Source: Terriglobales bacterium (GTDB taxonomy: Bacteria > Acidobacteriota > Terriglobia > Terriglobales > Acidobacteriaceae). From it: a DNA stretch of 64,000 nucleotides. Within the stretch, counting starts at the first letter, position 1; every line of letters begins with the position of its first letter. A program made the translations under genes and the position numbers. This document shows positions 1,650 through 61,300 of this stretch, in pieces. The DNA lies in the NCBI GenBank assembly GCA_035487355.1, contig DATHMF010000115.1:1-64000 (forward strand), written 5' to 3'. The notes under the pieces were generated by a model. The model searched no databases and had not been told where the DNA came from. It saw only the letters and a program-made list of their open reading frames with translations.

Positions 1650-1730
1650 CGCCGGCGTCTCGCTTTGATCGCAATTCCAATTACCAAATTACCCGATTAT
1701 TCAATCCCTCAATTCTGGGCATGGCCCCAT

Positions 1731-2025
1731 TGTGATATCAAACTCTTCATTCCTGAGAAACCCGGATTATCATTGTCCCTGGAAGTGTATCCAGCATCCC
1801 AGGATGCGAGGGCATTGCTCTATTTTGATCTTTGAAAATTGATTCTATGAAGCGGATTTGTGAATATCCTCACAAGCGCAAAGTAAATTTCACGCCCCAC
1901 TGATCGTTTACTAATTTAATAACAACAGACACTTGCTGCTTATACTTTTTATCCCATTCTATCTAGTTGATTTGTAATGGCTTGCTACTTAAGCCGACAA
2001 GCCAGCAAGTGGTGAGGGGTAAAGC
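1731..2025 (+). repeat. Dispersed intergenic repeat, copy A
   Basis: This copy fills most of the gap of about 440 bases between two convergent genes. It carries the family blocks in order: TGTGATATCAAA (1731), TCCTGAGAA, ATCATTGTCCCTGGAAGTGT, a hairpin GCATCC-CA-GGATGC (1794-1807), CTTTGAAAATT (near 1830), and a distal block GCCAGCAAGTGGTGAGGGGT near 2001-2020. Other copies lie near 23.3, 43.8 and 61.0 kb in the same orientation. No open reading frame is conserved in it. Confidence 0.7.
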
Positions 2026-9633: not shown

Positions 9634-11132
9634 GCGCCAAAGAAATGAAGAAAGTAAGGCCGCATCCCAGCCAGAATGAAGGATTGATCTTTGAAAAATC
9701 CTCGCCCGGCAAGAAAGGTTACAAACTTCCTCCTCTGGATGTGCCGCCGGTAGACGCCGCCAAACTTCTTGGAACCAGTGAGCGCCAGGACTTGGGCAAC
9801 ATGCCCGAGGTCAGCGAATTTGAGATTATCCGCCACTTTACCCGGCTTTCCACCTGGAACTACGCCATTGATCTGGGGATGTATCCGCTGGGCTCCTGCA
9901 CCATGAAGTACAACGCGCGCGTGAATGAAGCTGTGGCCCGCATCCCTGGGCTGGCCAACGCGCATCCCTACCAGCCGGAGAAGATGTCGCAAGGCGCCCT
10001 GCGCATTCTCAGACTGCTCGCCGATTACCTTCTGGAAATTACCGGCATGGAAGCGATCACGCTGCAGCCTGCGGCCGGAGCGCACGGCGAGATGACCGGC
10101 ATCCTGCTCATTCGCGCTTATCTGGAATCCAAGGGGAACCCGCGCAAAAAAATTCTGATTCCCGATTCGGCACATGGTACTAACCCTGCTACCGCAGCCA
10201 TCTGCGGTTATACCGTCGAGAACCTCAAATCAAATTCCGCCGGCATGGTTGACGTGAGCGCTCTGGCCGCGCAGATGAACGAAGATGTAGCCGGCATCAT
10301 GCTCACCAATCCCAACACGCTGGGCATCTTCGAAGAAGAAATTCACAAGATTGCCGACATCCTGCACGAAAAGGGCGGTCTGCTCTACATGGATGGCGCC
10401 AACATGAACGCCCTCGTGGGCAAGACCCGCCCCGGCGATTTTGGCGTGGATGTGATGCATCTTAACCTGCACAAGACTTTTTCTACACCGCACGGCGGCG
10501 GCGGACCGGGCTCAGGCCCTGTGGCCTGCAAGAATCATCTGGAACCCTTCTTGCCGATTCCAGTCGTTGTGACCAAGCCGGACGGCAGTCTGGGTTTTAA
10601 CTATGATCGTCCAAAGGCCATCGGTCGTGTGCGCATGTTCTACGGTAACTTCGGAATGCATGTGCGAGCGTTGGCCTACATCATGGCCAATGGCTACGAT
10701 GGCCTGCGCCTGACGACGGAAGACGCTGTTCTCAACGCCAACTACATTCGCAAAAAATTGGAAGATGTCTACGAAGTTCCGTACAAAACCCCTTCCATGC
10801 ACGAGGTCATCCTGAGCCACCATCGCCAGGCTCGGCAGGGGGTCAAGACAGGAGACATCGCCAAGCGGCTCATTGACTACGGCTTTCACCCCTACACAAC
10901 AGCGTTTCCGCTCATCGTTGCCGATCACGGCGCCATGATGATCGAGCCCACGGAGAGCGAATCCAAGGAAGAGATGGATTTGTTCATTGAAGCCATGCGT
11001 GCCATCGCGGAGGAAGCACAAACCGAGCCCGACACAATTCTGAAAGCGCCGCACACGACCCGCGTCTCGCGCTTGGATGAGGTCACCGCAGCCCGCAAAC
11101 CGGTTCTGTGCTGGAAGCCGGAAAAAGTTTAA
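9630..11132 (+). CDS. gcvPB: Glycine dehydrogenase (decarboxylating) subunit 2
   Basis: This is the C-terminal, PLP-binding half of split P protein, 500 residues. The Schiff-base lysine is in [20 protein letters not shown]. Other family blocks are [26 protein letters not shown] and [12 protein letters not shown]. It overlaps gcvPA by four bases (ATGA). Transcription downstream runs into a long inverted repeat (11131-11317), whose left arm begins at the stop codon and which may act as a terminator or mRNA-stabilising stem. Confidence 0.97.
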
Positions 11133-11317
11133 CCACAAAGGACACGAAGGTTAACCACAAAGAGCACAAAGGAAAGCGAGACAATTCATATGCGATTTCA
11201 ATCAGCCCTGTGCTCATGGGCATCTGGACGACTGCCAGTAGATATCAATACCGAAACCAACAGATCTTGCTGATTCTTTGTGTCCTTCGTGGTTAACCTT
11301 CGTGTCCTTTGTGGTTA
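11131..11317. repeat. Long inverted repeat of CTTTGTG/ACCACAAAG words
   Basis: The left arm (11131-11171) begins AACCACAAAGGACACGAAGG. The right arm (11276-11317) is its inverted copy, ending CCTTTGTGGTT. The first 28 positions of the two arms pair perfectly, and only a few mismatches occur over about 41 positions. The loop is about 104 bases and codes for nothing evident. Each arm is itself built of two to three tandem words. It begins immediately at the gcvPB stop codon. Confidence 0.8.
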
Positions 11318-11326
11318 AATCCTTCT

Positions 11327-18044: not shown

Positions 18045-18110
18045 ATACATTTTTGCCTTCCTTTGTGTTTCCTTTCGTCTGCCTTTGTGCCCTTTGTGGT
18101 TAAGCTCCTG
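18045..18110 (+). repeat. CTTTGTG...CCTTTGTGGTTAAG word repeat
   Basis: A tandem run of related words (CCTTTGTGTTTCC, CTTTGTGCCCTTTGTGGTTAA) sits between the fad promoter and the end of the VIT-type gene. It belongs to the same word family as the long inverted repeat at 11131-11317 but has no inverted partner nearby. Confidence 0.6.
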
Positions 18111-23173: not shown

Positions 23174-23299
23174 GCTAAGCGCTGAAAATGAACAACTCCA
23201 CTCTGCCGAAGGGCATGCGCGAAGCGCTAGAAAAGTACCGAAGATTTAAAAAATCATTTTCTGCGGAAAAGCCGTCAAAAACAGCGGCTGGCACCAATC

Positions 23300-23625
23300 T
23301 GGTACCAAAACATTGACTCCTTGGATGCTGCGGGGCCATCATTGTGCCAGACGTGTGTCTTACGTCCAGCATTCAAGAATGCATGAGGGCGCAGTAGCCT
23401 TGTTTTTGGCTGCGAAGCCCTTAAAATGAGGCTCTTTGAAAATTCGTTGCTTGCTTGGATTCACTTTTCGCGGGTTACAGGCGCGAGTCCAAGGGACTGA
23501 CTAGCCGTTCGACTAACCACTTTCCTCACTACCCAGCTAGTAGGGTATTTATGTCCTCTATGTCCTTTATTTATAATGAGTTAAGGCCGTATTTGACTAG
23601 CTAGCAAGTGCGAAGGGGTGCTAAC
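23300..23625 (+). repeat. Dispersed intergenic repeat, copy B
   Basis: This copy lies in the gap of about 680 bases between the aldo/keto reductase gene and the secreted-protein gene. Blocks: TGGTACCAAAA, GGGGCCATCATTGTGCCAGA, the hairpin GCATTC-AA-GAATGC (23369-23382), CTCTTTGAAAATTCGTTGC (23431), ACCCAGCTAGTAGGG (23530) and GCTAGCAAGTGCGAAGGGGT (23599). Relative to copies C and D it has an extra stretch of about 30 bases between the hairpin and CTTTGAAAATT. Confidence 0.7.
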
Positions 23626-36916: not shown

Positions 36917-37138
36917 GGAAAAATTCGCTGCAGATCAACGCGGATTGTCACGGATTTTTAAAGGCAGTTAGGCGCTAAAGGTCAGGGCAGGCTACGGGTA
37001 CTGAGACTTCGCCCTGCGGCACAGCGAGAAGCAAAGCTTAACCAAAGAGACACAAAGAATCATTGAGTCATCCGGTGATTTACGATTTTCGACCGACATG
37101 CCTTTCTGTTTCTTTGTGTCCTTTGTGGTTAAACTTCG

Positions 37139-38698
37139 TTAACGTTGCACGCGAATTTCGGCGCTGGCCGCGCTCAGGACGAAAGCCGGCTTCTCTTCAT
37201 GCTCTTCTTCTTCATGCCTTTCGTGTTTTTCTTCTCTTTCTTGCTGCCGTCCTTCACGGCGGCGCTGGGCTTCATCTCTGTCTTTATCGTGATCGTGATC
37301 GCGGTCTTCATCCTCAGCTTTGCGCCTTTTTCTCTTGAAGACTTGGATCGTCGCCGGATTGGTTTTTGACAACAAGTCTGCCAGCGAAGTGGTTATGTCC
37401 AGAACCAGCGTCTTGGGCCGGCGCTCCGTACTCTGCGCGAGTTCATGTATGGCTTCGTCCCCGAAGAAGGAGATCGCCCCCAGCAGGGTCCGTTTGTTTG
37501 TCCGCGTGGCAAATATGTCGAAGGTGCCGGTAAACTGGCGGGGCACAACCACTCCGTGCAGCACAAGGGCTGCCGGGAAGTTTGCGCCGGCCTGGGAGAG
37601 GAGGATCGTCCTGGCCTCTTCGTTGATACCAATGATCGGACCCACCTCGGGCGGAGGCTGGCAGCAAAGCAACTGGCATATGTAGGCGACGATGTACGGC
37701 GGGATGATGAACTCGTTCACGTAGGTATAGCGCAGGTTGCTGCGGTGATCGAGCACGTCGGCGGCGCTGATGGAGACCACCTGCTGGTTCTCGTCATAGA
37801 ACGACCAGCGCGCGTTGAGGAAGCTGGCGTCGGTGGGATTGTGATACGCGGTTGGAGGCAGTTTTTTGCTCGTCAGGCTGTTCCACTTGCTCCACAGCTT
37901 ATCGATATTGCAGTGGTGGGCAAAGAACAGCGGGTCGCGGGCGGCAAACGCCAGTGTTCCCATGTCATTGCCGCCGCCCAGGCCTACATCGGTATGAATG
38001 ATGTTGTGCGGGTCATCCTCGCAACCGCCCGAGCTGAAAGCGTCTCCACCGAAGGTGGGAAAATCCGTCATGCCCAGCAGCGTCTTGACCCGCGACGCCG
38101 TACCGTCGAATGCGGGCAGGTTGCCGCCGCCGGCCAGCCCGACGTCGCGCTTGGCGTCAAACAGAGAATTGACCGACGACCCCGGGGTTGTGTAAGGCGT
38201 GGGCAGGTTGCGGATGTTTTCCCAATCCCAATAAGGCAGGCGGAAGCCATCTATGTTCCCTACCAGCGATCCCAGGATGCGCTCGTAGTAGTAGAGATAA
38301 GCGCGATGCCAGGGAAAGAAGTTCCACGAGCCGTGGATCTGGGTGTTGTCATTGCTGCATTGATGGCAGTTGGTTGCATGGATATCGGCCTGCAGCACCC
38401 AGGTGCGCTTGTCGCTCAAGGGAAGAGCGCGCAGCGCGGCGTATGCGGACGCCAACTCGGTAAGCTCCGCTCCCGACAGCGAGCTGATGGACCGGCGCAG
38501 GATAATCGGCCGGGTATCGCTGCCGGCAACAAATGGGATGCCTCCCGCGGCGGGCACCGGACATCCGAAAGGCGGGTCCTGCGCCCAAGTCGGCAACGCC
38601 CCAATAGTGCTGTAGCCGGCCACGACAGAGCCGGCCGCAATGGCCGCTGTGCCCTGCAGGAAACGGCGGCGGTTGATACGGCTGGTGTGATCACTCAT
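37139..38698 (-). CDS. Tat-exported polyphenol oxidase/tyrosinase with charged insert
   Basis: This is a 519-residue type-3 copper oxidase of plant PPO architecture. The Tat signal is RINRRRFLQGTAAIAAGS with cleavage near 40. CuA ligands are His107, His122 (IHGSWNFFPWHR) and His131. CuB ligands are His231 and His235 (HNIIH) and His261 in FFAHHCNIDKLW. The central DWL-like and C-terminal KFDV-like beta domains follow. Between the last two strands, residues 455-504 form a run of Lys/Arg/Glu/Asp/His with HDHDKD and EEKHERHEEEE stretches, absent from ordinary PPOs. AGGAG eight bases before the ATG supports the start. It probably oxidises phenols outside the cytoplasm. Confidence 0.93.
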   Translation of the reverse strand: MSDHTSRINRRRFLQGTAAIAAGSVVAGYSTIGALPTWAQDPPFGCPVPAAGGIPFVAGSDTRPIILRRSISSLSGAELTELASAYAALRALPLSDKRTWVLQADIHATNCHQCSNDNTQIHGSWNFFPWHRAYLYYYERILGSLVGNIDGFRLPYWDWENIRNLPTPYTTPGSSVNSLFDAKRDVGLAGGGNLPAFDGTASRVKTLLGMTDFPTFGGDAFSSGGCEDDPHNIIHTDVGLGGGNDMGTLAFAARDPLFFAHHCNIDKLWSKWNSLTSKKLPPTAYHNPTDASFLNARWSFYDENQQVVSISAADVLDHRSNLRYTYVNEFIIPPYIVAYICQLLCCQPPPEVGPIIGINEEARTILLSQAGANFPAALVLHGVVVPRQFTGTFDIFATRTNKRTLLGAISFFGDEAIHELAQSTERRPKTLVLDITTSLADLLSKTNPATIQVFKRKRRKAEDEDRDHDHDKDRDEAQRRREGRQQEREEKHERHEEEEHEEKPAFVLSAASAEIRVQR

Positions 38699-38860: not shown

Positions 38861-39194
38861 AACACTTACCATATTTCGTAAATCGCAATTTCCCTGTTCT
38901 GAATAGTGTGGGACGATCGCAAACCGTCTCACCTTGTGAGAAGTTTTTCCGTGCCTGAACTGCTGAGCGGCGAAAGTGTAACCCCAGAAGGATGGCAAGG
39001 TGTATTAAGTGCTGATGAAATTCTCTTTAAAAAACAGCGCATAGGCATTGAGCAGTTAGCAATTAACCGCAAAGGACACAGATGACCAGCAAGTTATGCA
39101 GTGACAATTTGCTCCATCCTTGTGGTTGACAACTTCGTGCTTGGGGCCGATATTATTTGCGTCCGACATTCCCAACATTTTTGAGGAGATATCC

Positions 39195-41283: not shown

Positions 41284-41376
41284 ACTTTCTCCAATTTGGA
41301 CAGCGCGCCCTAGATTTAAAGATGAAGCGTCAGGATGACCCATACGCCGCGAACCTTGGGGTCCGCTGCACCCGGC

Positions 41377-43515
41377 CTACTCCGATTGGCTGCTCTTCTT
41401 TTTTAACGCGGCACCCAGGTTATACAACGCATCAACATCATCGGGCTTCACCTCCAGCGCCTTGCGATAGCTGGCAATTGCCTCATCCAGCAGGCCCTTG
41501 TCTGCTAGCGCGGCGCCAAGGTTATTCAGCGCATTGAAATAATCGGGCTTGATCTTCAGCGCCTTGCGATAACTAGCAATGGCCTCATTCGGCAGCCCTT
41601 TGTCCACTAGGGCGTTGCCTAGGTTGCTCAACGCATTGATATAGTCGGGCTCAATCTCCAGCGCCTTGCGAAAGCTAGCAATGGCCTCCTCCAGCAGACC
41701 GTTGGCTGCTAGCGCATTGCCTAGATTATTCAGCGCATCAACATCATCGGGCTTGATCTCTAGCACCTTGTGATAACTGGCGATGGCTTCATCCAGCAGG
41801 CCCTTGTCTTTGAGCGCGACACCTAGGTTGTTCAGCGCATCAACATAATCGGGCTCAATCTCCAGCGCCTTGTGATAACTGGCGATGGCTTCATCCGGCA
41901 AGCCCTTGTCTTTGAGCGCGACACCTAGATTATTCAGCGCTTTGACATTATCGGGGCTTATTTGGAGAGCCTTGCGATAGCTGGCAATGGCTTCATCCGG
42001 CAGGCCCTTGTTCCAAAGCGCGTTGCCCAGGTTATTTAGCACACCGGCATTATCGGGGCCTATTTGCAGCGCCTTGCGATAGCTGGCAACGGCTTCATCA
42101 AGCTGACCCTGGTCTTTGAGCGCGATCCCTAGGTTATTCAGCGCACCGACATTATCGGGGCCTATTTGCAGCGCCTTGCGGTAGCTGGCAATGGCTTCGT
42201 CCAGACGTTTGATGTGATGGAAGCAGTAAGCCATGTCGAAGGCAAGAACCGCGTCATCGGTAAGTGTTCTGGCCGCCTTCGCCAGATAAACGAGGGCTTG
42301 CTGATAGTTCTCGCCGCTTTTCCAGAAGATGCCGAGGGACTGCAGGTCGCGCGCAGAGCCTACTCCCTCAACCGTGTCTCCCAAGCGCTCGACATGCGAG
42401 TTCAAGAGAGCGCTGTTCCGTGAATAGTAGTCAAAGAAATCAAGCGTGAGATAGCTGTCGTGAGAGGCGGCGATGGTTCCGTTGCGATGCAGGAAGCCAT
42501 CGCGAATCAAGTCACGGAGGGTAGATTCAAATTTGTCTTCGGGGAGGCTACATTCATAGATGTCTTTCATGACCGCGCCGACGAGCGTCTCTTCTGGAGA
42601 AAAGATAAGAGCTGTACGCAGAAGAAACATTGCCTTCATGAGGGTCTGAGATTTTTCACCGGCTTTCTTAAGGCGCACACGCATCTGCTCCAGCCCCAGC
42701 AAAATACTGCCGGGAGTACGGTCGTGGATTTTGGGGGCCGGTTTGCCGACGCTTTGGGCTAGATCGGCGAGCTCCGTTTCCGTAAAGTCACTGCAGCTCA
42801 CCGTTAGAAACTGGTCTATAAAAGAGGCCATTTCCGCATCAGAGCGGACCATCTCAAGCTCCTGGCCGGAACGGCATGTGACGATGATTCGGACGAGGCA
42901 TTGCTCCCCGAGCATACGTTCTCCCCGATTCAGGTCTAGCTTGCCCAGGAATTTGTCCGCATCATCAATAATCCATAGGACTTTGCAGCGAACCCCAAGC
43001 TTGGGGAAGTTGAGGGCCTTCCAGTCGTTAAATTCAGGGTCAAGCCGTAACACCAGGTCGCTACTCCCCACATCTTTAGCCAGGTTGAAGGCGAGCCGGG
43101 TCTTTCCACCCGAGGGTGGTCCTACGATAAGAACGCGATTTTTCTGCAAGAGTGCTTGTTTGGCCTCCTGCGCCTCCGAATGCGCTTTATAAAATGTGTT
43201 GAAACCGACGATGCCTAAGTCGGCGGGGCGCAATTTTCTGCCATGGGTAAGGAGTTTCACGATGGGTTTAACTGCTTCCAGCGCCTCTTGGCGATCAGCG
43301 AGCAACCAGAGACAAGCGCAGAGAAGAACGAAGGCCAGTCCCGAAAAAGAACTCAAAATTAGGTGGGATTTCAGGATGTTTATCCATGGCGTCAGATTTG
43401 GCGACGGCTTTTCAGCGAGCTGGTCTTTCACAATGAAGATTGCAGTGCCGACTAGGATTGTCAGCAAACTGTATGTCAGCCATTTGACCGCTTTTGCGAC
43501 GGACATCTTGCGCAC
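41377..43515 (-). CDS. Membrane STAND-type NTPase with C-terminal TPR array
   Basis: This 712-residue protein has two TM helices (about 12-29 and 50-73), an NTPase domain with Walker A GPPSGGKT (132-139), Walker B VLWIIDDAD (179-187) and RIIVTCRSG near 210. A helical/winged region follows (about 290-390), then roughly nine TPR units of 34 residues (from about 430 to the end), repeats of ALNNLG...EAIASYRKAL. The order effector/TM, NTPase, sensor repeats is that of STAND signalling ATPases. Start is GTG 43515 or ATG 43506; neither has a strong Shine-Dalgarno sequence. It is followed by the membrane receiver gene. Confidence 0.85.
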   Translation of the reverse strand: MRKMSVAKAVKWLTYSLLTILVGTAIFIVKDQLAEKPSPNLTPWINILKSHLILSSFSGLAFVLLCACLWLLADRQEALEAVKPIVKLLTHGRKLRPADLGIVGFNTFYKAHSEAQEAKQALLQKNRVLIVGPPSGGKTRLAFNLAKDVGSSDLVLRLDPEFNDWKALNFPKLGVRCKVLWIIDDADKFLGKLDLNRGERMLGEQCLVRIIVTCRSGQELEMVRSDAEMASFIDQFLTVSCSDFTETELADLAQSVGKPAPKIHDRTPGSILLGLEQMRVRLKKAGEKSQTLMKAMFLLRTALIFSPEETLVGAVMKDIYECSLPEDKFESTLRDLIRDGFLHRNGTIAASHDSYLTLDFFDYYSRNSALLNSHVERLGDTVEGVGSARDLQSLGIFWKSGENYQQALVYLAKAARTLTDDAVLAFDMAYCFHHIKRLDEAIASYRKALQIGPDNVGALNNLGIALKDQGQLDEAVASYRKALQIGPDNAGVLNNLGNALWNKGLPDEAIASYRKALQISPDNVKALNNLGVALKDKGLPDEAIASYHKALEIEPDYVDALNNLGVALKDKGLLDEAIASYHKVLEIKPDDVDALNNLGNALAANGLLEEAIASFRKALEIEPDYINALSNLGNALVDKGLPNEAIASYRKALKIKPDYFNALNNLGAALADKGLLDEAIASYRKALEVKPDDVDALYNLGAALKKKSSQSE
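41420..42235 (-). repeat. 102-bp in-frame tandem repeats encoding TPR units
   Basis: Eight complete 102-base units, each one 34-residue TPR, lie in the 3' part of the STAND gene. Neighbouring units are very similar at the DNA level; for example, the block CTTGTCTTTGAGCGCGACAC recurs exactly near 41803 and 41905. This implies recent unit duplication or gene conversion. Unit number may vary between strains. Confidence 0.85.
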
Positions 43516-43754: not shown

Positions 43755-44105
43755 CGTGGTATCACTGTGATATCAAATTCTTAATTTCTTAGGAATTTTA
43801 TGCCATCATTTGTCCTTGAGGTGTGTTTGACCGCATTCCAGAATGCGGGGGTTAGGCCCCTAGGTCTTTGAAAATTCGTTACCTTGCAGGATGAATATCC
43901 GCTTGCAGTGATCAAGCGCTGTTTGGCTGGTCGGGGTGAGATGACCCGAGCAGCTTGACCCTTGGAGCTGAGGGCTGTGAGCTTGGAGCTGTCTTCCAGA
44001 CTACCAGCTAGTCCCCCGGCCCGGATTGATCTTCGCCAATAATGACGCGGGTCAGACGCGATTTGGGGCACTCTAACCACAAGCTAGCAAGCGGGGTGGG
44101 GGGCA
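43755..44105 (+). repeat. Dispersed intergenic repeat, copy C
   Basis: The gap of nearly 1 kb between the divergent STAND gene and TonB_C-protein gene contains this copy: GGTATCACTGTGATATCAAA (43758), AGGAATTTTATGCCATCATT (43791), GTCCTTGAGGTGTGTTTGA, hairpin GCATTC-CA-GAATGC (43833-43846), GTCTTTGAAAATTCGTTACC (43864), CCAGCTAGTCCCCC (near 44003) and GCTAGCAAGCGGGGTGGGG (44083). The 5' end is also palindromic (TATCAC-T-GTGATA). Elsewhere the gap has word repeats at 43605-43675, 44115-44140 and 44335-44370. Confidence 0.75.
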
Positions 44106-60990: not shown

Positions 60991-61300
60991 CAGTGGTATC
61001 ACCGTGATATCAAAACCGTGATTTCCTGGGAACTGTATGCCATCATTGTGCTGGAGGAGTGTTTTTACGGCGACTCATTAGAACGAACAGCATTCAAGAA
61101 TGCGGGGACGTGTGCCCTCAAGGTTCTTTGAAAATTTGTTACGGGTAGATCGAACGCGCAGCAGAATGCTGGCTGAGTACCACTTTTACCTGCTCAGCTG
61201 GTCCCCACCCCAGACATCAACTTTCACCGCTAGATATGCGGCGATCAGCGCTGTTTCTAGGGTTTCACCCATTAGCAGCAAGTACCCCACCCCCCACCTA
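60991..61300 (+). repeat. Dispersed intergenic repeat, copy D
   Basis: Blocks: GTGGTATCACCGTGATATCA (60992), ATTTCCTGGGAACTGTATGC (61021), CATCATTGTGCTGGAGGAGT, hairpin GCATTC-AA-GAATGC (61090-61103), GTTCTTTGAAAATTTGTTAC (61123), then CTCAGCTGGTCCCCACCCC (61194) and AGCAGCAAGTACCCCACCCC (61274). It lies between tag (transcribed away) and the small zinc-finger gene. The rest of this gap of about 560 bases has no recognised gene. Confidence 0.75.

Follow-up and report, generated by a model that had tools for sequence, protein, structure and literature searches.

A dispersed intergenic repeat with promoter-like, boxA-bearing heads and modular units, restricted to one genus of Acidobacteriaceae

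The DNA analysed here is a stretch of 64,000 nucleotides (the window) from a Terriglobales bacterium of the Acidobacteriaceae (contig DATHMF010000115.1 of assembly GCA_035487355.1, positions 1 to 64,000 of the forward strand). It holds four copies of a repeat, and the copy of interest, copy 3, lies at 43757..44101. An earlier examination of the letters alone (the sequence-only reading) had reported one four-copy element of about 300 bp. All four copies are there, intergenic and on the plus strand, and its blocks occur in the order it gave in every copy; we corrected the starts to 1722, 23289, 43757 and 60994. Each copy consists of two 8-bp palindromes, TGRTAYCA-n3-TGATATCA, followed by a sigma70-type promoter sequence, a hairpin, the boxA word TCTTTGAAAAYT, a linker, and one or more units. 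The features are listed below; in copies 1, 2 and 4 the palindromes, promoters, hairpins and boxAs, and in copies 1 and 2 the unit-related stretches, were read off the sequence. Bits for whole elements are covariance-model scores.

1722..2019, plus, copy 1, whole element (100 bits)
1722-1729/1733-1740, plus, copy 1 palindromes
-35 1746-1751, -10 1768-1773, plus, copy 1 predicted promoter, 16-bp spacer
1794-1807, plus, copy 1 hairpin
1827-1840, plus, copy 1 boxA
1962-2019, plus, copy 1 unit-like stretch
23289..23617, plus, copy 2, whole element (89 bits)
23289-23296/23300-23307, plus, copy 2 palindromes
-35 23313-23318, -10 23337-23342, plus, copy 2 predicted promoter, 18-bp spacer
23369-23382, plus, copy 2 hairpin
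23431-23444, plus, copy 2 boxA
23535-23541 and 23603-23609, plus, copy 2 AGCTAGT and AGCAAGT
43757..44101, plus, copy 3, whole element (119 bits; 91 blastn matches genome-wide)
43757..43775, plus, copy 3 operator-like palindrome pair TGGTATCA-n3-TGATATCA (motif at 73 genome sites)
43781..43809, plus, copy 3 predicted promoter, -35 TTAATT 43781-43786, 17 bp, -10 CATCAT 43804-43809 (position frequencies, 78 heads)
43833..43846, plus, copy 3 hairpin GCATTC-CA-GAATGC, then a GGGG/CCCC stem
43863..43876, plus, copy 3 boxA GGTCTTTGAAAATT (boxA word 125 times genome-wide, control 0)
44005..44101, plus, copy 3 unit CAGCTAGT ... CACAAGCTAGCAAGCGGGGTGGGG, AGCAAGC at 44086-44092 (nhmmer unit, 85 bits)
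60994..61293, plus, copy 4, whole element (112 bits)
60994-61001/61005-61012, plus, copy 4 palindromes
-35 61018-61023, -10 61041-61046, plus, copy 4 predicted promoter
61090-61103, plus, copy 4 hairpin
61123-61136, plus, copy 4 boxA
61195-61293, plus, copy 4 unit

A covariance model had been proposed as a check. The one we built from 22 heads, the first part of the element, matches the window copies (E 3e-20 to 2e-14), the whole genome of the window (G000) and that of a sister species, the one other genome of the genus. Three of the four window copies helped build the model; the genome-wide result is independent of that. The search found no fifth copy in the window, and G000 as a whole, instead of four, has at least 118 heads on both strands (E<1e-3), a lower bound since 150 of 1603 candidates were scored. 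The sister genome has at least 19 copies, or 24 at E<0.01. The element was absent from 35 other sampled genera of the family and from the order and class samples; it is restricted to one genus. At gathering and relaxed thresholds, Rfam had nothing on the element, with no match in the window and only sub-threshold matches in 16 loci. Plasmid, phage and IMG/VR collections gave no match, and a pattern scan of GTDB contigs gave three AT-rich chance matches, all lacking the hairpin. When copy 3 was searched against G000 with blastn, the 91 matches fell into two classes, a 5′ head (query 1-131) and a 3′ unit (query ~250-355). The unit recurs at a period of ~205 bp, the head always coming first and on the same strand. 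We then dropped the view of head and unit as a single 300-bp repeat: what follows boxA is a modular unit, present once per copy in the window and up to five times elsewhere.

The head resembles the start of a transcription unit. The pair TGRTAYCAnnnTGRTAYCA occurs at 73 sites in G000, and its reversed control at none. Position counts over 78 heads give the consensus TGRTAYCA-n3-TGRTAYCA-AA, a -35-like hexamer, 17 bp and CATMAT, and the positions expected to be invariant stand out (-35 T2 95%, -10 A2 94%, -10 T6 81%). Within 53 nt before boxA, 62 of 74 heads have a perfectly paired stem of 5 bp or more, compared with 12% of shuffles. The word TCTTTGAAAAYT occurs 125 times in G000 (62 forward, 63 reverse) and never when read backwards; the sister genome has 17, and each of 59 other relatives 0 to 7. 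Its identification as boxA relies on the rRNA leaders of the family and on what is established about boxA. The 16S gene of G000 itself is missing from the assembly, so the comparison uses two relatives from the family whose 16S gene is intact; they have GGATCTTTGAAAACT or GGATCTTTGACAATC ~150 bp upstream of it. The element's word thus matches the family leader, follows a hairpin and lies downstream of a promoter sequence, as in an rRNA-type antitermination leader. Like the rRNA operon leaders, the element has boxA (GGWTCTTTGAAAAYT) downstream of a sigma70-type promoter and before RNA that would be untranslated; unlike them, it is followed by no rRNA, is scattered in more than 100 copies, and has tandem palindromes, which we did not see in the rRNA leaders inspected. 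Apart from rRNA itself, antitermination of the rRNA type is known from some CRISPR arrays and from a few operons. Many elements (L184, L193, L198 and several short copies) have a separate inserted module, GGGTGAGCGCGAAGCGAGCGCCGGATTGCGCGAGCGTAGCGCGAGGGC...CGCGGAGCCCTTAG, between hairpin and boxA, in some cases twice.

Since each copy has a promoter and an operator-like palindrome pair, the family could be a bank of regulatory promoters acting on neighboring genes. However, the next downstream gene is on the opposite strand, facing the element, in 50 of 73 copies (p=0.002), and therefore most copies could only give antisense RNA; we consider a promoter bank very unlikely. Convergent gene settings outnumber divergent ones 25 to 9. 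This bias fits avoidance of read-through into genes, and fits parasitic repeats equally well, as these are also enriched between convergent genes (PMC3049150). The shared orientation of the four copies would suit a chromosome-organising or segregation site; the sequence-only reading had offered the former. The common strand is real in the window, and orientation within contigs is weakly concordant (p=0.05, marginal), but genome-wide the boxA words divide 62 to 63, and a check of strand bias found no relation to GC skew, with 42 of 81 copies on the positive-skew strand (mean 0.0016 +/- 0.0032). We give such a site next to no credence.

In each copy the linker leads to one or more units of ~96 nt, about five at most. 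Each unit opens with AGCWAGK and extends to a hairpin, MCTWGC..GCAAGK, with a G- or C-run after it. We aligned 92 units; those of both genomes align at 95-97 nt with few gaps. The opening AGCWAGK pairs in a stem with MCTWGC, which lies close to the end of the unit (columns 3-8/78-83, 92% of cells paired); this stem emerged only once sister-species units were added. It has 20 double-sided changes, compared to 9.5 in shuffles, with two of the six pairs changing on both sides. Its covariation score was reached by none of 500 shuffles, slid versions of the stem are 8-49% paired, and RNAalifold, unaided, predicts five of the six pairs from the two species together. This covariation is mostly between species: one of the two covarying pairs reflects a single concerted change, from T-A to G-C, at the species level. 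In G000 alone, covariation of the other, an A/T pair, was not significant (p=0.18), and RNAalifold found no consensus fold for 61 type-A units; mutual information over the units was dominated by subtype differences. MCTWGC is also able to pair with the closing GCAAGK, and therefore an alternative pairing is possible. Taken together, the sigma70-spaced promoter, the hairpin, the rRNA-like boxA and the two-species covariation of the unit stem lend support to a noncoding RNA, one of the identities the sequence-only reading had offered.

A single 5′ head with promoter and boxA, followed on the same strand by tandem units at the ~205-bp period, might also suggest a spacer-acquiring array, CRISPR- or integron-like, with the head as leader and the units as repeats. 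According to the account in PMC7862264, boxA lies upstream of CRISPR arrays, and adding boxA gave ~10-fold more array transcript, a point in favor of the transcription unit proposed below. The likeness to such arrays (Stringer et al., as cited there) is that of a promoter and boxA before a repetitive noncoding array. CRISPR repeats are near-identical and their spacers unique, whereas the ~96-nt units vary (~70-87% alike) and the DNA between them is itself repetitive, made of stretches common to several loci and partly of inverted relatives of the unit. Nor did we notice an integrase or cas gene next to the copies inspected. We regard an array of this kind as highly improbable. Between units (at L031, L032 and in other arrays) we saw the unit core in a related, inverted form, AAAATCCGCGTTGATCCGCGTTCATCCGCGGCGAAAAG, as well as drifting repeats of the words GAGAACTGAGAACTG and GAAACTCGAAACTTG.

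Some palindrome pairs in G000 precede an ORF in place of the hairpin. In this long form, the operator and promoter sequences are followed by the ORF, then by hairpin and boxA, linker and units, all on the same strand. The protein has 19 matches at about 18 loci of G000; there is no such gene in the window. The ORFs are 145-325 aa long, and their invariant residues include C-x9-C-x10-C-x2-H (three Cys, one His). Where a locus is assembled far enough to count, hairpin and boxA follow the stop codon by 18-303 nt in ten loci, and in an eleventh locus another, related ORF comes before them; two loci, L203 and L205, have no boxA in reach. L202 is one long-form element with two related zinc-motif ORFs in tandem and a single boxA behind them. 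Long and short copies are up to 80% identical over 60 nt in their 5′ parts and up to 88% over 222 nt in their 3′ parts. Contig ends truncate about six of the long-form loci, and near-identical repeats would be expected to break an assembly in this way. The ratio dN/dS is 0.11-0.69, mostly below 0.5 (13 pairs), and the ORFs are therefore under purifying selection. The protein had no convincing match in Pfam, NCBIfam or PHROGs, no match in PDB or PADLOC, and no viral relatives. No gene for it was detectable in the sister genome, which does have the short form, complete with promoter, hairpin, boxA and units; this is weak evidence of absence because that genome is 76% complete and in 690 contigs.

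Of the 299 class genomes, 39 have more distant relatives of the protein. These uncharacterised zinc-motif proteins of Terriglobia (e.g. L209-L234) differ from the long form in having one to four matches per genome, and no operator palindromes or boxA beside those checked. Of 25 relatives with a callable start, many of them from one genus, 17 have a self-complementary G-run/C-run no more than 40 nt 5′ of that codon, compared to 1.9% of random stretches. The run, such as GGGGGGTACCCCC or CCCCCCAGGGGGG, stands just before the ribosome-binding site, and in one genus a further conserved hairpin lies upstream of it. It looks like an autoregulatory leader. The units of G000 end in the same kind of G/C run, a suggestive similarity and the only hint of a functional link between protein and units.

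Comparison of the two genomes shows how the copies behave over time. At two loci (C109, C73), the sister has the element between the same genes, which are 78-81% identical. Within the element itself, likeness is mostly confined to TGATATCAAA, the promoter with its -10 region, boxA and a unit core, a pattern that selection on those blocks would produce. At three others (C6, C27, C93) the two genes are paired in the sister as well, but no element accompanies them. The copies are therefore inherited and have also been gained or lost.

The sequence-only reading had also offered a MITE-like element, and this gains support from the many dispersed copies, their presence or absence between the sister genomes and the protein-coding long form with the same two ends. 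The main rival goes further: plain selfish DNA (a MITE), in which the conserved blocks are transposase recognition sites and any transcription is incidental. The dispersal of at least 118 copies, their gain and loss between the sister genomes, the enrichment between convergent genes known from pneumococcal BOX/RUP, and a longer gene-bearing form with the same ends all speak for it. However, the blocks agree with a spaced sigma70 promoter and an rRNA boxA, a likeness not to be expected of transposon ends, and the long-form gene, with no convincing family match, does not look like that of a transposase. We identified no transposase and no terminal inverted repeats: the 5′ end has the TGRTAYCA palindromes and the 3′ end AGCAAGT with a G/C run, with no inverted match. 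We aligned three occupied and empty site pairs and identified no target duplication, the sister's intergenic DNA being too diverged to place the junctions. Near-identical short copies are lacking as well; the closest pairs are 85-87% identical, and therefore no recent burst is seen. We think plain selfish DNA unlikely, if still worth weighing.

Known repeats share parts of this design. By architecture, pneumococcal BOX (boxA-boxB(n)-boxC; PMC3049150) is similarly dispersed and modular, with a variable number of internal modules; it is predicted to fold when transcribed and is enriched between convergent genes. Its boxA module is not the antitermination boxA, the shared name being a coincidence. 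In contrast to BOX, the element described here combines a sigma70-type promoter of its own with an rRNA-type boxA and also has a protein-coding long form; its units follow one head with no closing boxC. Correia elements of Neisseria are likewise MITE-like and present in many copies, and some make functional promoters and are processed as RNA, according to PMC3049150; that account bounds them by 26-bp inverted repeats, which we did not find here, and describes no boxA or unit array.

We propose, with moderate confidence, that the element is a dispersed, genus-specific noncoding transcription unit that is antiterminated, evolves fast, spreads in a MITE-like manner and has a protein-coding long form. 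A sigma70-type promoter would start an untranslated transcript, perhaps under the control of a protein that binds the two upstream palindromes. With the hairpin and rRNA-type boxA, RNA polymerase would withstand Rho across the untranslated part; this part would carry the units (AGCWAGK/MCTWGC), each followed by the terminal hairpin with its G- or C-run. Short and long forms share both ends, and the short form is most simply a MITE-like, internal-deletion derivative of the long form that has since multiplied. The presence of short forms without the protein gene in the sister genome means that the direction could be the reverse. The long-form protein may bind such RNA, with the units as possible binding sites.

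A bolder version strikes us as rather unlikely: a two-part RNA-protein family made up of an RNA-binding zinc-motif protein and over 100 RNAs that are antiterminated through boxA and bear the protein's binding motif (hairpin plus G/C run) in arrays. Protein and RNAs would spread jointly as a mobile element, and the genus would keep them because the RNAs act in trans, either on the protein or on its targets. Dispersed transcribed repeats are a kind already known, to which this family would belong; the RNA and protein functions would make it a new kind if they hold. If our main reading is true, well over 100 scattered boxA-led noncoding units would be one of the largest uses of rRNA-type antitermination, and the role of such RNAs and the spread of boxA with mobile DNA would become directly testable. 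An unannotated zinc-motif protein family of Terriglobia also gains a context of promoter, boxA and RNA units.

The window has other repeats as well. Another dispersed intergenic repeat, with the word TTAACCACAAAGGACACGAAGG, occurs in both orientations at 11126-11319, 18055-18106, 37092-37139 and 39063-39098. At 41290-42303, a 102-bp repeat recurs in register, with eight copies that lie for the most part within the minus-strand ORF 41377-43515.
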